Assembly (NCBI GenBank): GCA_016932475.1
Contig: JAFGCU010000107.1
Coordinates: forward strand, 1 to 45,142
Length of the DNA: 45,142 nt
DNA from: Anaerolineales bacterium
GTDB taxonomy: Bacteria; Chloroflexota; Anaerolineae; Anaerolineales; RBG-16-64-43
Reading direction: 5' to 3'
Shown: positions 16,035-32,580 of the stretch, in pieces
Layout of the letters: every line of letters starts with the position of its first letter
How positions within the stretch are numbered: position 1 is the stretch's first letter
Notes under the pieces: generated by a model
Database searches by the model: none
Seen by the model: only the letters and a program-made list of their open reading frames with translations
Told to the model about the DNA's origin: nothing
Position numbers and translations under genes: made by a program

Positions 16035-16063
16035 AAAATAAAAACCCTCCGCCGATGGAGGGT
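16035..16063 (-). terminator. Riboswitch-controlled terminator sequestering thiN RBS
   Basis: In transcript order CCCTCC (16062-16057) pairs with GGAGGG (16050-16045), loop of six, then TTTTTATTTT to the thiN ATG. The 3' arm is also the thiN ribosome binding site, so folding would stop transcription and hide the start. Confidence 0.85.
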
Positions 16064-16075
16064 GAGGGTGAGTCA

Positions 16076-16166
16076 CACGATCCCTCCGCCGGCATTACCC
16101 GGAGCAGGTTCTGCGGGTCGAAGGCTGTGCGCCTCCCTCTCAGCCCGGATACGGGCTCCCCGTGAA
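16076..16166 (-). ncRNA. TPP riboswitch (THI element)
   Basis: The minus-strand leader of thiN matches the THI-box core: GGGGAGC (16161-16155), CTGAGA (16143-16138), GAACCTG (16111-16105), then CCGGGTAATGCCGGC (16102-16088) and GGAGGGA (16086-16080). These are the diagnostic parts of the TPP aptamer. It sits between a promoter and a terminator/RBS hairpin. TPP binding should switch off thiN-thiB-thiP and the ATPase. The motif is seen directly; the OFF response is inferred from the terminator. Confidence 0.96.
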
Positions 16167-16175
16167 TATGATCCA

Positions 16176-26690: not shown

Positions 26691-27275
26691 TCAATCTTCC
26701 TCGTGTCCTCCGCGGATTCTCTTTTCCATCAACCAAGCCGGTTCCAGGACCTCCCGGATATTTCCCTCATGATCGACGTAAGACCAGCGGCCGGGATCCT
26801 CGGCGATGACGCGGTATCCCAGCCGTTCGTACAAAGCGCGCGCCCGCGGATTGTCTTTCTCCACGCCGATCGACGCCGTGTCCATCCCGCGCCGGTGCAA
26901 TTCGTTCTCCGCCGCGGCGAGGATTCGGGTGCCCAGACCCCGGCACCGGAAAGCGGGCTTGATGCGCAGCGCGTACAGATACCCGCGCCGGGTGCCGTCG
27001 GCGAACCGCGGATCGCTGCTGCTCCACTGGATGAAAATCTGCCCGACCATCCCGCCGGTCGGCGTGTGTTCCACCATCAATAAATGCCGTGTGCCGATCC
27101 GCATATCCTCGTACGCCTGCCGGAAAAGGCGGCGGAAATGGAGATACACCCCGTCCCATTCCAAGCCCGGCAGGTCTTTTTCTTCGATCGGCCGGATGGC
27201 AAACTCGTTTGCTTCCCGCCGGCCGTTTCCGACGGCAGCCTCCGCCGCCTCGTTCCGGAAGGTCTGTGCCGTCAT
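26691..27275 (-). CDS. GNAT family N-acetyltransferase
   Basis: A 194-residue acetyltransferase that should move an acetyl group from acetyl-CoA to an amine. The acetyl-CoA-binding motif A is visible as LYALRIKPAFRCRGLGTRILAAAENEL (RGLGT loop), and motif B as GVEKDNPRARALYERLGYRVI. The substrate is unknown. The ATG at 27275 overlaps the stop of the upstream tRNA nucleotidyltransferase fusion (ATGA), so the two are translationally coupled. A role linked to tRNA or nucleotide turnover is possible but not shown. Confidence 0.88.
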   Translation of the reverse strand: MTAQTFRNEAAEAAVGNGRREANEFAIRPIEEKDLPGLEWDGVYLHFRRLFRQAYEDMRIGTRHLLMVEHTPTGGMVGQIFIQWSSSDPRFADGTRRGYLYALRIKPAFRCRGLGTRILAAAENELHRRGMDTASIGVEKDNPRARALYERLGYRVIAEDPGRWSYVDHEGNIREVLEPAWLMEKRIRGGHEED

Positions 27276-29911
27276 CGGGTTGCACCCCCGTGGTCTTTCT
27301 TCGGAAGATCCGCAAGCAGCATATCCAGCATCCGCGCCTCGTCCTCCGCCGTGGAGATCCGGCCGTCCAGGCGGGCGCTGCGAAGCGTGTGCAGGATTTC
27401 CCGATAGCGCGGCCCCGGCGGCAAACCGCGTGTCCGCAGCAGCGAACCATCGGTCTCCGGCTGGACGGCGCGCCATTCCGCCAGGTAACACGCCAGCCGG
27501 TCGCGGACCAACCCATCCGATTGCAGGATGGCTCCCACCAGCGCCGGTTCCGGCACATCCTCGAGAAGATCGGCCACGCGGCTGGGGGGGGCTTCCGCGG
27601 GTAGAACCGCCAGCCGGTCTACCGACTGGCGGGCGGCGAGAATGTTCGTGGCTTCCCGTTTTGGAAGATTGAGGCGCTCGAGGATTCCCGCCAGCGCGTC
27701 GCACGGATGCCCGGTCAGCCAGGCGGAGAGCGGCGGCACCATATCGCGGCCGCCGCCGGCCAATCTCCACTTCGGGTCCGGCACGAACGCACGCGCGCGG
27801 CGGACATGCTCCGCGTGGATCGGATCCCAAGTCAGGTCCGGATGGATCTGGCCGAGGATTTCCAGTTCCTGCAAACGATGCAGCGCGTTTTCCGGAGCGG
27901 TTTCTTTCAAGATGGCTTCCAGCTCATGGCGGATCCGGTCGCCGCTCACCCGGTGCAGGAGCGGCAGCGCGCGCGTGATCAGATCCCGGGTGCGGGGCTC
28001 GATCGCAAATCCCAGCCGCTGCTCCAGCCGGACGGCGCGCAGAATCCTCGTCGGATCGTCGACGAAGGAAATCGAATGCAGCACCCGGATCCGTTTCTCC
28101 TCCAGATCGCGCAGCCCGCCCCAGAAATCGCTGACCTCCCCGAAATGGGCGGCATTCAAAGACAGCGCGAGGGTGTTAATGGTGAAATCGCGGCGGTGAA
28201 GATCCAGCTTAAGGTTTCCGCGTTCCACTTCCGGAAGCGCCGAAGGGTGCGGATAGAATTCCGCCCGGGCGGACACCAAATCCAGAGAATCCGGAAGCTC
28301 GGAAACCGCCTCCGCGCTCAGCCCGAGTTTCGCCGGATCGACGCCGCGCAGCAGCCATTTGGCCGTGCCGAATCGGTCATGACTGCGGATCCGCCCGCCG
28401 AATTCCTTCGCCACCGAACGCACAAGCCCGATCGCATCCCCCTCGACCACCAGATCGAGGTCGTGCGAGGGGATCCCAAGGATCAGATCGCGGACCACGC
28501 CGCCCACCAAGTACAGCGGCATGCGCTGCCGGTCCGCCACAGACGCCATGGCCTGCAGCAAAGCCCGCCGCGCCGCCGGGAAATTCTGCTCCAGCGCTTC
28601 GCGCAGGTTCCGCCGGGCGGCGGGCATCCCGCCCTTCCCGGGCGCCAGCGCTTTGATCAGGTCGGTGCGGGTGACGATTCCCACCACGTGATCGCCCTCG
28701 GGCGAGACGACCGGAATCTGCCCCCAACCCTGCTCTACCATCAGTTGCTGCAGGTGGGTGATCGAATCGGCGAGTTGGACAGTGACCGAACCGCCTTCCA
28801 TCACGGTTTCCACGTGCGCGCGCTTCATCCCGTGCGCGACCGCGCGGTCCACCGCGCGCCGCGTGAGCAATCCGACCACCCGTCCGTCGCGGACGACGGG
28901 GAAACCCTCGTATCCGTAGCGTGCCATCCTCTCCGCGGCCTCGGCGACGGTCAGGTCGGAGGCCACCACCTGCGGGCGCGGCGAGTAGATCTGTGCCACC
29001 GACAACGGCGGGGTGATGGCGGCGGGCAGCAGCTCCTCCAGCTCGCGGCGTATTTCGTCCCGCGTGCGCCCGCGGATGAGGGCCGCCGCGGCGCGCTCGT
29101 GCCCGCCGCCGCCGAAATGCGCGGCGATCTCCGAGACGTCGATCGAATCCGTCGCGGCACGCGCCACCATCTGGATGTGCGATCCCAGATCCACCAGGAC
29201 GAACAGTCCATCGGGGGTGTACAGGTCGCGCAGTTTATGGGCCAGGGTGGAGATTTCCTCGACTTCCGCCGGAGCGGCGGCTTGGGCGATCAGTATCCGG
29301 CGGCCCTGAACGGTCAGGAATTCCGTGCTGTCCAGAAGGCGGTCGTACAGTTCGCGCTGTGACGCCGAAAGCGGATGGTTGAGGAAAGGGGCGGCGAGGG
29401 TCAGGCTGGCGCCCTGCTCGATCAATCCGGCGGCAGCGCGCACATCGCGCGGTGTCGTGCCGGCGTAGGAAAGCGATCCGGTGTCTTCGTAAATCCCCAG
29501 AAGGAGGAGTGTGGCTTCCTCCGGAGTCAGCGGATAGGGGAGGGCCTGCAGGGATTCGACCAGCAGCGTGGTGCACGCGCCGACCGTATCCACCGCGCTG
29601 GTCCAACCCTGCGGCATCGTCTTGTGCGGCGGGTGATGATCCACCGCGTGCACGCGCGTTGCGGCGCTTACGCCGCGGACGGTCGGCATCGACTGCGTAT
29701 CCACCAGCGTCACCCGGTCGACCCGCCCGCGCGGCAGGTCGTCCATGGTTTCGAACGGCAGCGCATCGCCGTACAGCGCCAGGAAAGCGTGCACGTTGCG
29801 ATTCGTCCGGTGCGGGAGCACGGCGTGCGAATCCGCTTCCAACAGACGCGCGGCGAGCATGGCGGCCAGTGCGTCGAAATCGGCTTGTTCGTGCGTCAGG
29901 ATCAGGTGCAT
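27272..29911 (-). CDS. DHH phosphoesterase-CBS-CBS-tRNA nucleotidyltransferase fusion
   Basis: An 879-residue fusion. Residues 1-285 are a DHH/DHHA1 nanoRNase-like unit (Asp11, Asp13, VDTQS, VDHHPP at 90-95, GGGGHE at 267-272). Two CBS domains follow (about 312-365 and 370-425), which sense adenine nucleotides in other proteins. A class II nucleotidyltransferase head has LVGGVVRDLILG (468-479) and the catalytic DLDLVVEGD (Asp484, Asp486), then RRDFTINTLAL and DDPTRILRAVRLEQRLGF. The same arrangement is known for A-adding tRNA enzymes in some phyla, so this may add only the terminal A. I chose ATG 29911 because the DHH fold begins there. Confidence 0.92.
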   Translation of the reverse strand: MHLILTHEQADFDALAAMLAARLLEADSHAVLPHRTNRNVHAFLALYGDALPFETMDDLPRGRVDRVTLVDTQSMPTVRGVSAATRVHAVDHHPPHKTMPQGWTSAVDTVGACTTLLVESLQALPYPLTPEEATLLLLGIYEDTGSLSYAGTTPRDVRAAAGLIEQGASLTLAAPFLNHPLSASQRELYDRLLDSTEFLTVQGRRILIAQAAAPAEVEEISTLAHKLRDLYTPDGLFVLVDLGSHIQMVARAATDSIDVSEIAAHFGGGGHERAAAALIRGRTRDEIRRELEELLPAAITPPLSVAQIYSPRPQVVASDLTVAEAAERMARYGYEGFPVVRDGRVVGLLTRRAVDRAVAHGMKRAHVETVMEGGSVTVQLADSITHLQQLMVEQGWGQIPVVSPEGDHVVGIVTRTDLIKALAPGKGGMPAARRNLREALEQNFPAARRALLQAMASVADRQRMPLYLVGGVVRDLILGIPSHDLDLVVEGDAIGLVRSVAKEFGGRIRSHDRFGTAKWLLRGVDPAKLGLSAEAVSELPDSLDLVSARAEFYPHPSALPEVERGNLKLDLHRRDFTINTLALSLNAAHFGEVSDFWGGLRDLEEKRIRVLHSISFVDDPTRILRAVRLEQRLGFAIEPRTRDLITRALPLLHRVSGDRIRHELEAILKETAPENALHRLQELEILGQIHPDLTWDPIHAEHVRRARAFVPDPKWRLAGGGRDMVPPLSAWLTGHPCDALAGILERLNLPKREATNILAARQSVDRLAVLPAEAPPSRVADLLEDVPEPALVGAILQSDGLVRDRLACYLAEWRAVQPETDGSLLRTRGLPPGPRYREILHTLRSARLDGRISTAEDEARMLDMLLADLPKKDHGGATR

Positions 29912-29962
29912 GTCGGCATCCGGTTCGATTATACTTCCGTGACAATGGATCGAGGCTGCCCG

Positions 29963-30205
29963 ATGACCGAGACGCTGGACCCCGAACTTCTCTGGAGCCG
30001 CCTGCTTTCCGGTGAACCGGATCTCATCCGCGCCGCATGGGAATCGCTTGATGCCGCGGGACGGGAGGGCGTCCGCCGGCATCTGCAGACAATGGCGGAG
30101 GAGCCGGGCTGGCAGCCCGGCCAGCGCCAGGCCGCGCGCTCGGCGCTGGATTGCCTGGAGCCGGATCGCGGCCGCAAGGCCGGGCCGGATTCAAAAAGCC
30201 GTTAG
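29963..30205 (+). CDS. Hypothetical protein, 80 aa
   Basis: An 80-residue soluble protein, mostly helical, Arg/Glu/Trp-containing (LLWSRLLSGEPDLIRAAWESL, GREGVRRHLQTM), with a basic C-terminus. The ATG at 29963 is 7 bases after GAGG; an ATG at 29945 is less well placed. It is divergent from the nucleotidyltransferase fusion with a 51-bp gap and precedes the acetyltransferase by 37 bases. Some small Chloroflexota proteins have this HEAT-like pattern, but no function is known. Confidence 0.6.
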   Translation: MTETLDPELLWSRLLSGEPDLIRAAWESLDAAGREGVRRHLQTMAEEPGWQPGQRQAARSALDCLEPDRGRKAGPDSKSR

Positions 30206-30242: not shown

Positions 30243-31247
30243 ATGCCGATAGAATTCATCCGCGACGTTGCGTCGTGGGATAACCTGACCGCCGAATGGA
30301 ACGAGCTCCTGTCCCGCAGCGCAGTGGAATATCCGTTTCTACGCTGCGAATTTCTGCGCGCCTGGTGGGATCACCTCGGCGGAGGGGAATGGCCGTCGGG
30401 CGAATTGCAGATCGCGGTCTGGAAGGAAAACGGCGCCCTCCAGGGGATCGCCCCTTTGTTCCGAAGCCGCCGCGACGGCGATCCGGGGCTGTTCCTGATC
30501 GGCAGCGTGGAAATATCGGATTACCTGGATGTGATGGCCGCTCCGGACCGGCTCCCCGAGTTTTGCGCGCATCTGCTGGACGCGCTGGCGGCGCTGCCGA
30601 CGCAGGAGTTCCGCGCGCTCGATTTTTCCAATCTGCAGGCGGGTTCGCCCACCATTCCGATCCTCGAGCAGGAAACCGCGCGCCGGGGATGGACGCTGGA
30701 ACGCGCGCCGCTTCAGGTTTGTCCGGTGATCGACCTGCCCCCGACCTGGGAAGAGCATCTCTCGGCGCTAGAGAAAAAATCCCGCCATGAAATCCGGCGC
30801 AAGCTGAGGCGCGCCGAAGGCGGGGAGGAAAAATTGGAGTTGAAAATCCGCGGGGCTTCCGGGATGGAGGAATTCTTTCGCCTGATGGCATGCGACAAGC
30901 ACAAGGCGTCATTCCTCACCCCGCTGATGCGGACTCAATTCCTGGCGATCGCCGAAGCCGCCGCGCAGGCCGGAATGCTGGAACTGGCCTTCCTGGAAAT
31001 CGGCGGGCGAAGCGCCGCCGCCTACATGAACTTTGCCTTTCGAAACCGGATCTGGGTTTACAACTCGGGAATGGATCCGCAATATGCGGCTTCGTCGCCG
31101 GGCTGGGTGTTGTTGGCCATATTGATCCGGCGCGCGATCGAATCCGGGTATCGCGCGTTTGATTTTATGCGCGGCGACGAGCCTTATAAATTTCAATGGG
31201 GCGGCAAGGGCGAACCGATCCTGCGCCTGACGGTCCGCAGACCGTAA
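30243..31247 (+). CDS. CelD/BcsL-type GNAT acetyltransferase
   Basis: A 334-residue double-GNAT protein of the CelD/BcsL or FemAB-like group, which often modify polysaccharides or aminoacylate cell-wall precursors. Signs: an N-terminal half with WNELLSRSAVEYPFLRCEFLRAWWDHL and GIAPLF, a linker with SRHEIRRKLRRAEGG, and a C-terminal half with AAAYMNFAFRNRIWVYNSGMDPQYAASSPGWVLLAILIRRAIESGYRAFDFMRGDEPYKFQWG. This ending is diagnostic for the family. AGGAG occurs 8 bases before the ATG. The substrate is unknown. Confidence 0.88.
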   Translation: MPIEFIRDVASWDNLTAEWNELLSRSAVEYPFLRCEFLRAWWDHLGGGEWPSGELQIAVWKENGALQGIAPLFRSRRDGDPGLFLIGSVEISDYLDVMAAPDRLPEFCAHLLDALAALPTQEFRALDFSNLQAGSPTIPILEQETARRGWTLERAPLQVCPVIDLPPTWEEHLSALEKKSRHEIRRKLRRAEGGEEKLELKIRGASGMEEFFRLMACDKHKASFLTPLMRTQFLAIAEAAAQAGMLELAFLEIGGRSAAAYMNFAFRNRIWVYNSGMDPQYAASSPGWVLLAILIRRAIESGYRAFDFMRGDEPYKFQWGGKGEPILRLTVRRP

Positions 31248-31540
31248 TCGAAGGATGTCATTCCCGCGCCTGCCCTCGTGCTTGCCCCCCGAGCGGTGAG
31301 TACCGGGGATTATCCGATACGAAGGTATCGCGAGCGCGGGAAGCTCGCAGGTTCGTCTTTGATCTTTGGATCTGCGCGGACGCGAAGTGAGGGTTTTCGT
31401 AGCGGAAATCCATAACTCATCCACCGATAAACCGCCGGAAACCCGCAAAACCCCCGCGGGCATATTGATCAAACCCTGTCATCCCCTCAACACCCCCTAA
31501 TCCTCCTATTCCACCAATTTCGGTCCGATTATCTTCCTCC
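31248..31540. repeat. Intergenic repeat-rich segment
   Basis: Downstream of the acetyltransferase there is a repeat stretch. The core TACGAAGGTATCGCGAGCGC (31318-31337) matches sites at 37049-37071 and, inverted, 45111-45132. No gene is supported here. The AT-rich DnaA-box cluster follows at 31541. Confidence 0.5.
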
Positions 31541-31673
31541 TGTGGATAAGTGGTTAAAAATTGTGGAAAAGTCGGGAAAAAGCAGGGGAAAATGTAGATA
31601 ATTCTTGGGAATGTGTGGACACAAAATTAGGGCAAATCCTACTTGCACCGCGAATCCGGTTTTTTTCCGGATT
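31541..31673. other. AT-rich cluster of DnaA-box-like sites
   Basis: Four same-orientation sites: TGTGGATAA (31541-31549, perfect complement of TTATCCACA), TGTGGAAAA (31562-31570, one mismatch), TGTAGATAA (31593-31601, one mismatch) and TGTGGACAC (31614-31622, two mismatches). Starts are spaced 21, 31 and 21 bp, all near whole helical turns. The segment is visibly richer in A and T than its neighbours, and an inverted repeat AATCCGG/CCGGATT with a T7 loop sits at 31653-31673. This could be a DnaA-binding locus or origin; there is no dnaA nearby and the flanking genes converge, which argues against a textbook origin. Confidence 0.45.
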
Positions 31674-32580
31674 AATTTATTGTTATCAAAGAAACGGCTG
31701 CCGCCCACAGGCCGATCGTCACAATAAATGAAACCGCCCAAAGCGCATACGCCGATGGCTTTTGCCCCATTCTCCATGCCAACCATCCAAGGATCGCATT
31801 CAACAGCCAGACAAAACCTCCGGCCAACGGAAGGATTAACAGCCGGCTTGGATCGCCGGGGCTTGTCGGTACGCCGGCCGGGTCAAACCGGAACGGTTGA
31901 TCCATCGCCAGTTGGGATTGGATTGCCGTCAGGAAAGCGCCCAGCGCGGTCATTCCAACGGATCCGCCGATCAGCAATCCAAGCGCGGGCGGATTTTTTA
32001 GAATCTCCACCAGAATCGAGGGCGGTTGGATGGAAGAAGACTCAATTTTTTCAAGGCTTCCGTGGGCGGAAAGGTCGGTCAGTCTCGTGGCGAACCCCGC
32101 CGGATCTGCCGGAGAAACCGCCAGATGCCGGTTCTTTGTCACCAAAAGCAACAACCGCTGTCCGCGGTCGGTGGCCAGCCAGTCGACTTGTGTTTCCCCT
32201 TCCGCCGCCGCCCGCCCATGCCACACCTCCAGCCATCCCGGAGCCGCGGAGCGGATCGCCGCCGGGATCCGCCCTCCGGAACGGATTTCTTCGATCTCTT
32301 CGATGGGAAGAATCTCCCGCCACGGGCCGAACCGCAGAGTCAGTGAACCGGAGCTGGAAATCTCATACCCGGCGTTGAGCAGGAATACAATTCGATAGAG
32401 GACCGCCGGCAGCAGGAACAAACCGGCAATAGCGATGATCAGGCCGGCCGCGGCGGCGGTATCCGGGGGATAAGCGAACAACCGCCAGCCGGCGGCACCG
32501 ATCAATCCGCACAGAAAAACGCCCAGGAGAATGTGGAGTACAAGCAGGCGGGTCCGGACGGCCGGGAAGCGTGTCAGCAT
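31672..32580 (-). CDS. Membrane protein with PH-like domain
   Basis: A 302-residue protein with two N-terminal membrane helices (about 15-60), a soluble middle domain resembling a bacterial PH fold (GYEISSSGSLTLRFGPWREILPIEEIEEI... RLLLLVTKNRHLAVSPADPAGFATRL), and two C-terminal membrane helices (about 205-290). Bacterial PH proteins of this kind are usually of unknown role. I start at ATG 32580 because the frame further upstream runs antisense-phase through ilvE codons; no strong ribosome binding site is seen. It lies 109 bases downstream of ilvE and may be co-transcribed. Confidence 0.65.
   Translation of the reverse strand: MLTRFPAVRTRLLVLHILLGVFLCGLIGAAGWRLFAYPPDTAAAAGLIIAIAGLFLLPAVLYRIVFLLNAGYEISSSGSLTLRFGPWREILPIEEIEEIRSGGRIPAAIRSAAPGWLEVWHGRAAAEGETQVDWLATDRGQRLLLLVTKNRHLAVSPADPAGFATRLTDLSAHGSLEKIESSSIQPPSILVEILKNPPALGLLIGGSVGMTALGAFLTAIQSQLAMDQPFRFDPAGVPTSPGDPSRLLILPLAGGFVWLLNAILGWLAWRMGQKPSAYALWAVSFIVTIGLWAAAVSLITIN

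Follow-up and report, generated by a model that had tools for sequence, protein, structure and literature searches.

The DnaA-box array and its surroundings

The window, that is, the whole 45,142-bp stretch of DNA analysed here, is the entire contig C6 of a MAG of 3.65 Mb in 129 contigs (G000). It contains an array of DnaA boxes in the gap between a FemAB-like acetyltransferase gene and the gene of a membrane protein with a bacterial PH domain, which converge as stated in the original prediction. The array lies ∼50 bp 3' of the bPH_5 stop.

30243..31247, + strand: FemAB-like acetyltransferase (PF13480), convergent with the bPH_5 gene
31541..31549, - strand: DnaA box 1, TTATCCACA (TGTGGATAA on the + strand), perfect; position shared with G001 and G003
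31562..31570, - strand: DnaA box 2, TTTTCCACA (TGTGGAAAA on the + strand), 1 mismatch; 21 bp from box 1
31574..31581, - strand: weak half-site TTTTTCCC, ∼10 bp from box 2; conserved among G000, G001 and G003
31593..31601, - strand: DnaA box 3, TTATCTACA (TGTAGATAA on the + strand), 1 mismatch; 31 bp from box 2
31614..31622, - strand: DnaA box 4, GTGTCCACA (TGTGGACAC on the + strand), 2 mismatches; 21 bp from box 3
31653..31673, + strand: inverted repeat AATCCGG-T7-CCGGATT with a T7 loop, adjoining the bPH_5 stop; probably incidental
31672..32580, - strand: membrane protein with a bacterial PH domain (bPH_5, PF10882), 302 aa, start taken at MLTRFPAV

The coordinates originally given for four same-strand sites, starting at 31541, 31562, 31593 and 31614, are all correct. 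The spacings of 21, 31 and 21 bp were reproduced, and the first site, said to be a perfect DnaA box, has 0 mismatches to the consensus. With four sites in 82 bp, the clustering is above chance. In first-order Markov sequences, three boxes on one strand within ∼74 bp, none with more than one mismatch, occurred in 0/300 versions of the whole window, 0/4000 of the gap and 0/4000 of the 130-bp element.

Two further elements of the original prediction hold in part. The segment described as AT-rich in a GC-rich window is 62% A+T at 31541-31640, in a window of 62% G+C, but at 31248-31540, the leftmost 293 bp of the gap, the DNA is 56% G+C; AT-richness is confined to the right third of the gap. The inverted repeat with its T7 loop exists, but is no better than shuffled sequence: one terminator-like site was observed against 1.1 expected from shuffles, and the fold z of the region is -0.95. 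It is absent from the same place in G001 and G003, and Rfam gave no match at the array. On these grounds we rejected a conserved terminator or RNA structure.

Two other regions of the window deserve mention. Rfam places a TPP riboswitch (RF00059, 66 bits) at 16063-16172 on the - strand, and an ORF 3' of it on that strand, starting MPHKRAVIFANGSLPD, looks by eye like a thiamine pyrophosphokinase. A 936-aa ORF at 27272-30082 (- strand) combines a DHH/DHHA1 phosphoesterase with a pair of CBS domains and a CCA-adding/poly(A) polymerase; conserved counterparts occur in G001 and G003.

Conservation of pitch and place

The boxes are conserved in close relatives, where their absence would have counted against the original reading, and so is their spacing. 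In G003, from another genus of the same family, alignment on the perfect box places boxes at the identical four positions, 21-31-21, with further near-boxes beyond. Box 3 reads TTTTCTACA there, and box 4, which is weak in G000, reads TTATCCACA. In G001, a sister species in the same genus, 3/4 boxes are in register: in the aligned orthologous gaps, the counterparts of boxes 2 and 4 read TCTTCCACA and TTCTCCACA, and box 3 is degraded. A DNA-level search of relatives with the 301-bp gap returned only a 33-bp match, in G027 and at another place. Thus, the boxes and their pitch are conserved, not the whole gap sequence.

The same pitch recurs throughout the order. We surveyed 121 of its genomes for perfect same-strand boxes 13-42 bp apart and found 111 pairs, 81 of them at exactly 21 bp and 102 at 20-22 bp. 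Six of the remaining pairs lie at 31-34 bp and three at 41 bp, with none elsewhere; the reversed-pattern control gave zero pairs across the order. In the rest of the phylum the peaks are broader, with 57 of 118 pairs at 20-22 bp and others at 24, 31-32 and 41 bp. These peaks correspond to roughly 2, 3 and 4 turns of the helix. As the pitch is conserved order-wide, the helical phasing suggested by the window is backed by conservation, beyond a single sequence. The spacing spectrum also fits observations at oriC, where changes of box spacing by full helical turns are tolerated and part-turn changes are not (PMC4285127). The places carrying 21-bp pairs are seemingly few, at 1-3 per genome.

One of these places is the 3' side of the bPH_5 gene. 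Homologues of this gene occur in 102/121 genomes of the order, those in distant families being only 25-35% identical. Among the 30 best loci, 18 have at least two boxes within 200 bp 3' of the bPH_5 stop, oriented with the gene except for one stray site; box density after the stop is 8.42/kb, compared with 0.25/kb elsewhere in the same loci. A perfect pair lies within 150 bp 3' of bPH_5 in 23 genomes. Both counts combined, the array is found 3' of bPH_5 in at least 37 genomes from six families (f1, f4, f5, f7, f8 and f14). In f5, f7, f8 and G002, bPH_5 is followed by a codirectional gene for DUF92, an integral membrane protein; the array occupies the space between the two genes, often within a few dozen bases of the DUF92 start. 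In G000, G001 and G003, DUF92 is replaced by the opposite-facing FemAB-like gene; the array is still kept, in register. The FemAB-like protein of G000 has four homologues in the species collection, all in Chloroflexi MAGs, so that G000 is probably a member of this phylum.

Among the loci read, the array was not seen beside bPH_5 in f2, f3, f10, f11 and f13, and the complete genome G014 has no box pair beside its bPH_5 gene. The array is therefore not essential to the order. The array-bearing families fall in several places in a DnaA tree of the order; f2, f3, f9, f10 and f15, with no array seen at bPH_5, form one clade. This distribution fits an old element with losses, in a tree in which many forks are weak.

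Box pairs were also observed at other sites. A second recurrent 21-bp pair adjoins a gene pair for an ArsR-like regulator and an MFS transporter (L170, L171, L182, L153 and L158; families by blastp grouping, functions by eye). At G000:C121:27548-27578 (L013 1049-1079), in non-coding-looking DNA, two perfect boxes face each other as TTATCCACA-N13-TGTGGATAA, unlike the head-to-tail arrays.

Position relative to the replication origin

A chromosome origin was among the functions originally proposed for the array, with the absence of dnaA and dnaN noted against it. Indeed, no dnaA, dnaN or other replication gene lies near the array, its neighbours being bPH_5, the FemAB-like gene and IlvE. In G000, dnaA (TIGR00362) is found outside the window, on contig C45; linked to it are a perfect 21-bp pair at G000:C45:4412-4441 and four near-boxes within 400 bp. 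Over the whole of the syntenic contig in the sister species, cumulative GC skew reaches its minimum at G001:C15:128041; the dnaA-linked pair, at 128274, is 233 bp away. Skew is -0.040 before this minimum and +0.028 after it. To the right of dnaA on G000:C45, skew is positive at 4/4 sampled points. The occurrence of the same motif and 21-bp pair beside dnaA, at an origin defined by skew, ties the motif to DnaA.

At the array itself, GC skew never turns over. The values to its left and right are -0.053/-0.006 in G000, +0.009/+0.052 in G001, -0.033/-0.000 in G003 and -0.019/-0.017 in G011. Of the hallmarks of an oriC, the array has the DnaA boxes, and it has neither a skew minimum nor linkage to dnaA/dnaN. 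Phased boxes in an AT-rich stretch, with a 21-bp pair like that beside dnaA, are what an origin or part of one might look like. Against this stand the skew minimum of G001 beside dnaA on another contig, the constant sign of skew across the array contigs of G000, G001 and G011, the convergent flanking genes and the lack of replication genes nearby. We therefore regard it as highly improbable that the array is oriC; GC skew and the separate dnaA-linked pair both speak against an origin here. The sister-species skew, together with the lack of a sign change at the array, places the array outside oriC.

The origin itself may not always lie beside dnaA. In G011, the array and the skew minimum are 123 kb apart, and a second box pair, at 307.5 kb, is located 13 kb from that minimum. 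This 22-bp pair (G011:C1 307520-307550) marks a likely origin without dnaA, which is on contig C34. In G085 and G048, of the same genus, a second pair is ∼105 kb from the array and dnaA ∼236-238 kb. In the complete 4.40-Mb genome G014 (G014:C1), dnaA is at 3.07 Mb, away from any extremum of the sampled GC or AT skew, and DnaA-box clusters at 150 kb and 505 kb fall inside the range where the sampled skew turns. The origin may thus be distant from dnaA in some families of the order. The GC skew of G024 is too weak to place its origin.

Proposed function and relation to known systems

The array occupies a conserved non-origin place and has a conserved 21-31-21 pitch. We consider it reasonably likely that it is an extra-origin DnaA-box cluster, which binds DnaA away from oriC and thereby delays or times initiation. 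Of the three options originally offered, a DnaA-titrating or extra-origin locus is best supported, a DnaA-controlled switch is weighed below and a chromosome origin is contradicted. DnaA occupancy, co-operative binding and titration or datA-like inactivation are drawn from known biology and would operate as follows. Head-to-tail non-coding sites at two and three helical turns would let DnaA load on one face of the DNA, where neighbouring molecules could touch and bind co-operatively. The array would then hold a share of the cellular DnaA away from oriC, restraining initiation until the pool is refilled, and passage of the fork would double its sites, so that free DnaA drops. Alternatively, the array may promote DnaA inactivation, as datA does. 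In either case, it probably helps to set the timing of replication start.

The idea that the array is a DnaA-controlled switch, regulating bPH_5 from its 3' end or, ancestrally, the downstream DUF92 gene, draws on the codirectional order bPH_5-array-DUF92 in f5, f7, f8 and G002, often close to the DUF92 start, and on the known role of DnaA as a transcription factor (PMC4447404). Yet DUF92 is gone in G000, G001 and G003, where the array is kept in register and sits between two convergent gene ends; in G000 this position is ill-suited to a promoter switch, and the sole promoter-like site is at chance level. We hold such a switch to be unlikely. A bolder proposal starts from the array's place, in many families of the order, between the genes of two membrane proteins, the PH-domain protein and DUF92: DnaA on the phased array would act jointly with these neighbouring gene products, linking its control to the membrane in an undescribed kind of initiation-control site. 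We give this little credence.

That the array is a relic, or the second half, of an older and disused origin could explain why its motif and pitch match those of the origin pair, and would fit its location in the genus of G011, ∼105-137 kb away from the likely origin. A relic would decay, and here six families, dispersed in the DnaA tree, have retained both boxes and pitch, which makes this explanation improbable. Box-like words are commoner in AT-rich gaps, which speaks for a chance cluster or an assembly artefact, but the simulations yielded none and the array is conserved in independently assembled relatives; this conservation already refutes the idea, and its probability is negligible.

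Limits on initiation are poorly known in bacteria beyond the model species. The retention of one place and one pitch across many families suggests that extra-origin control of DnaA is old and selected in this order too. The coordinates of the array provide a precise target to delete or move, and its strict 21-bp pitch a clean test of DnaA assembly on duplex DNA.

The cluster boxes of Bacillus subtilis are of the TTATCCACA type. Six such clusters lie outside oriC (Okumura 2012), and their joint deletion leads to early initiation, according to PMC13220808 and PMC5295017. Like the array, they group several DnaA boxes outside oriC; the array differs in its 21-31-21 same-strand pitch and its fixed place 3' of bPH_5 across families. 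Streptomyces coelicolor also has a DnaA-box cluster (Smulczyk-Krawczyszyn 2006, as cited in PMC5742627). Both are single extra-origin clusters, but they come from different phyla, and their places are not shown to be homologous.

In E. coli, the positions and binding sites of datA and the DARS loci are conserved (PMC4585315, PMC5742627). With Escherichia coli datA the array shares a non-coding nature, several DnaA boxes and a conserved place (PMC4585315). An IHF site is required by datA, which promotes DnaA-ATP hydrolysis. DARS1 and DARS2 resemble the array in being intergenic, with conserved spacer lengths and place (PMC5742627, PMC4585315), but DARS frees ADP from DnaA via a specific box arrangement, whereas the boxes of the array all point in one direction.

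For Anaerolineae, or for Chloroflexi with DnaA and origin (the latter judged by title and abstract), the part of the literature covered yielded no paper on such clusters. Within G000, the array shares its box sequence and 21-bp pair with the dnaA-side oriC; the latter is dnaA-linked and its sister-species counterpart marks the GC-skew minimum, whereas neither holds for the array.
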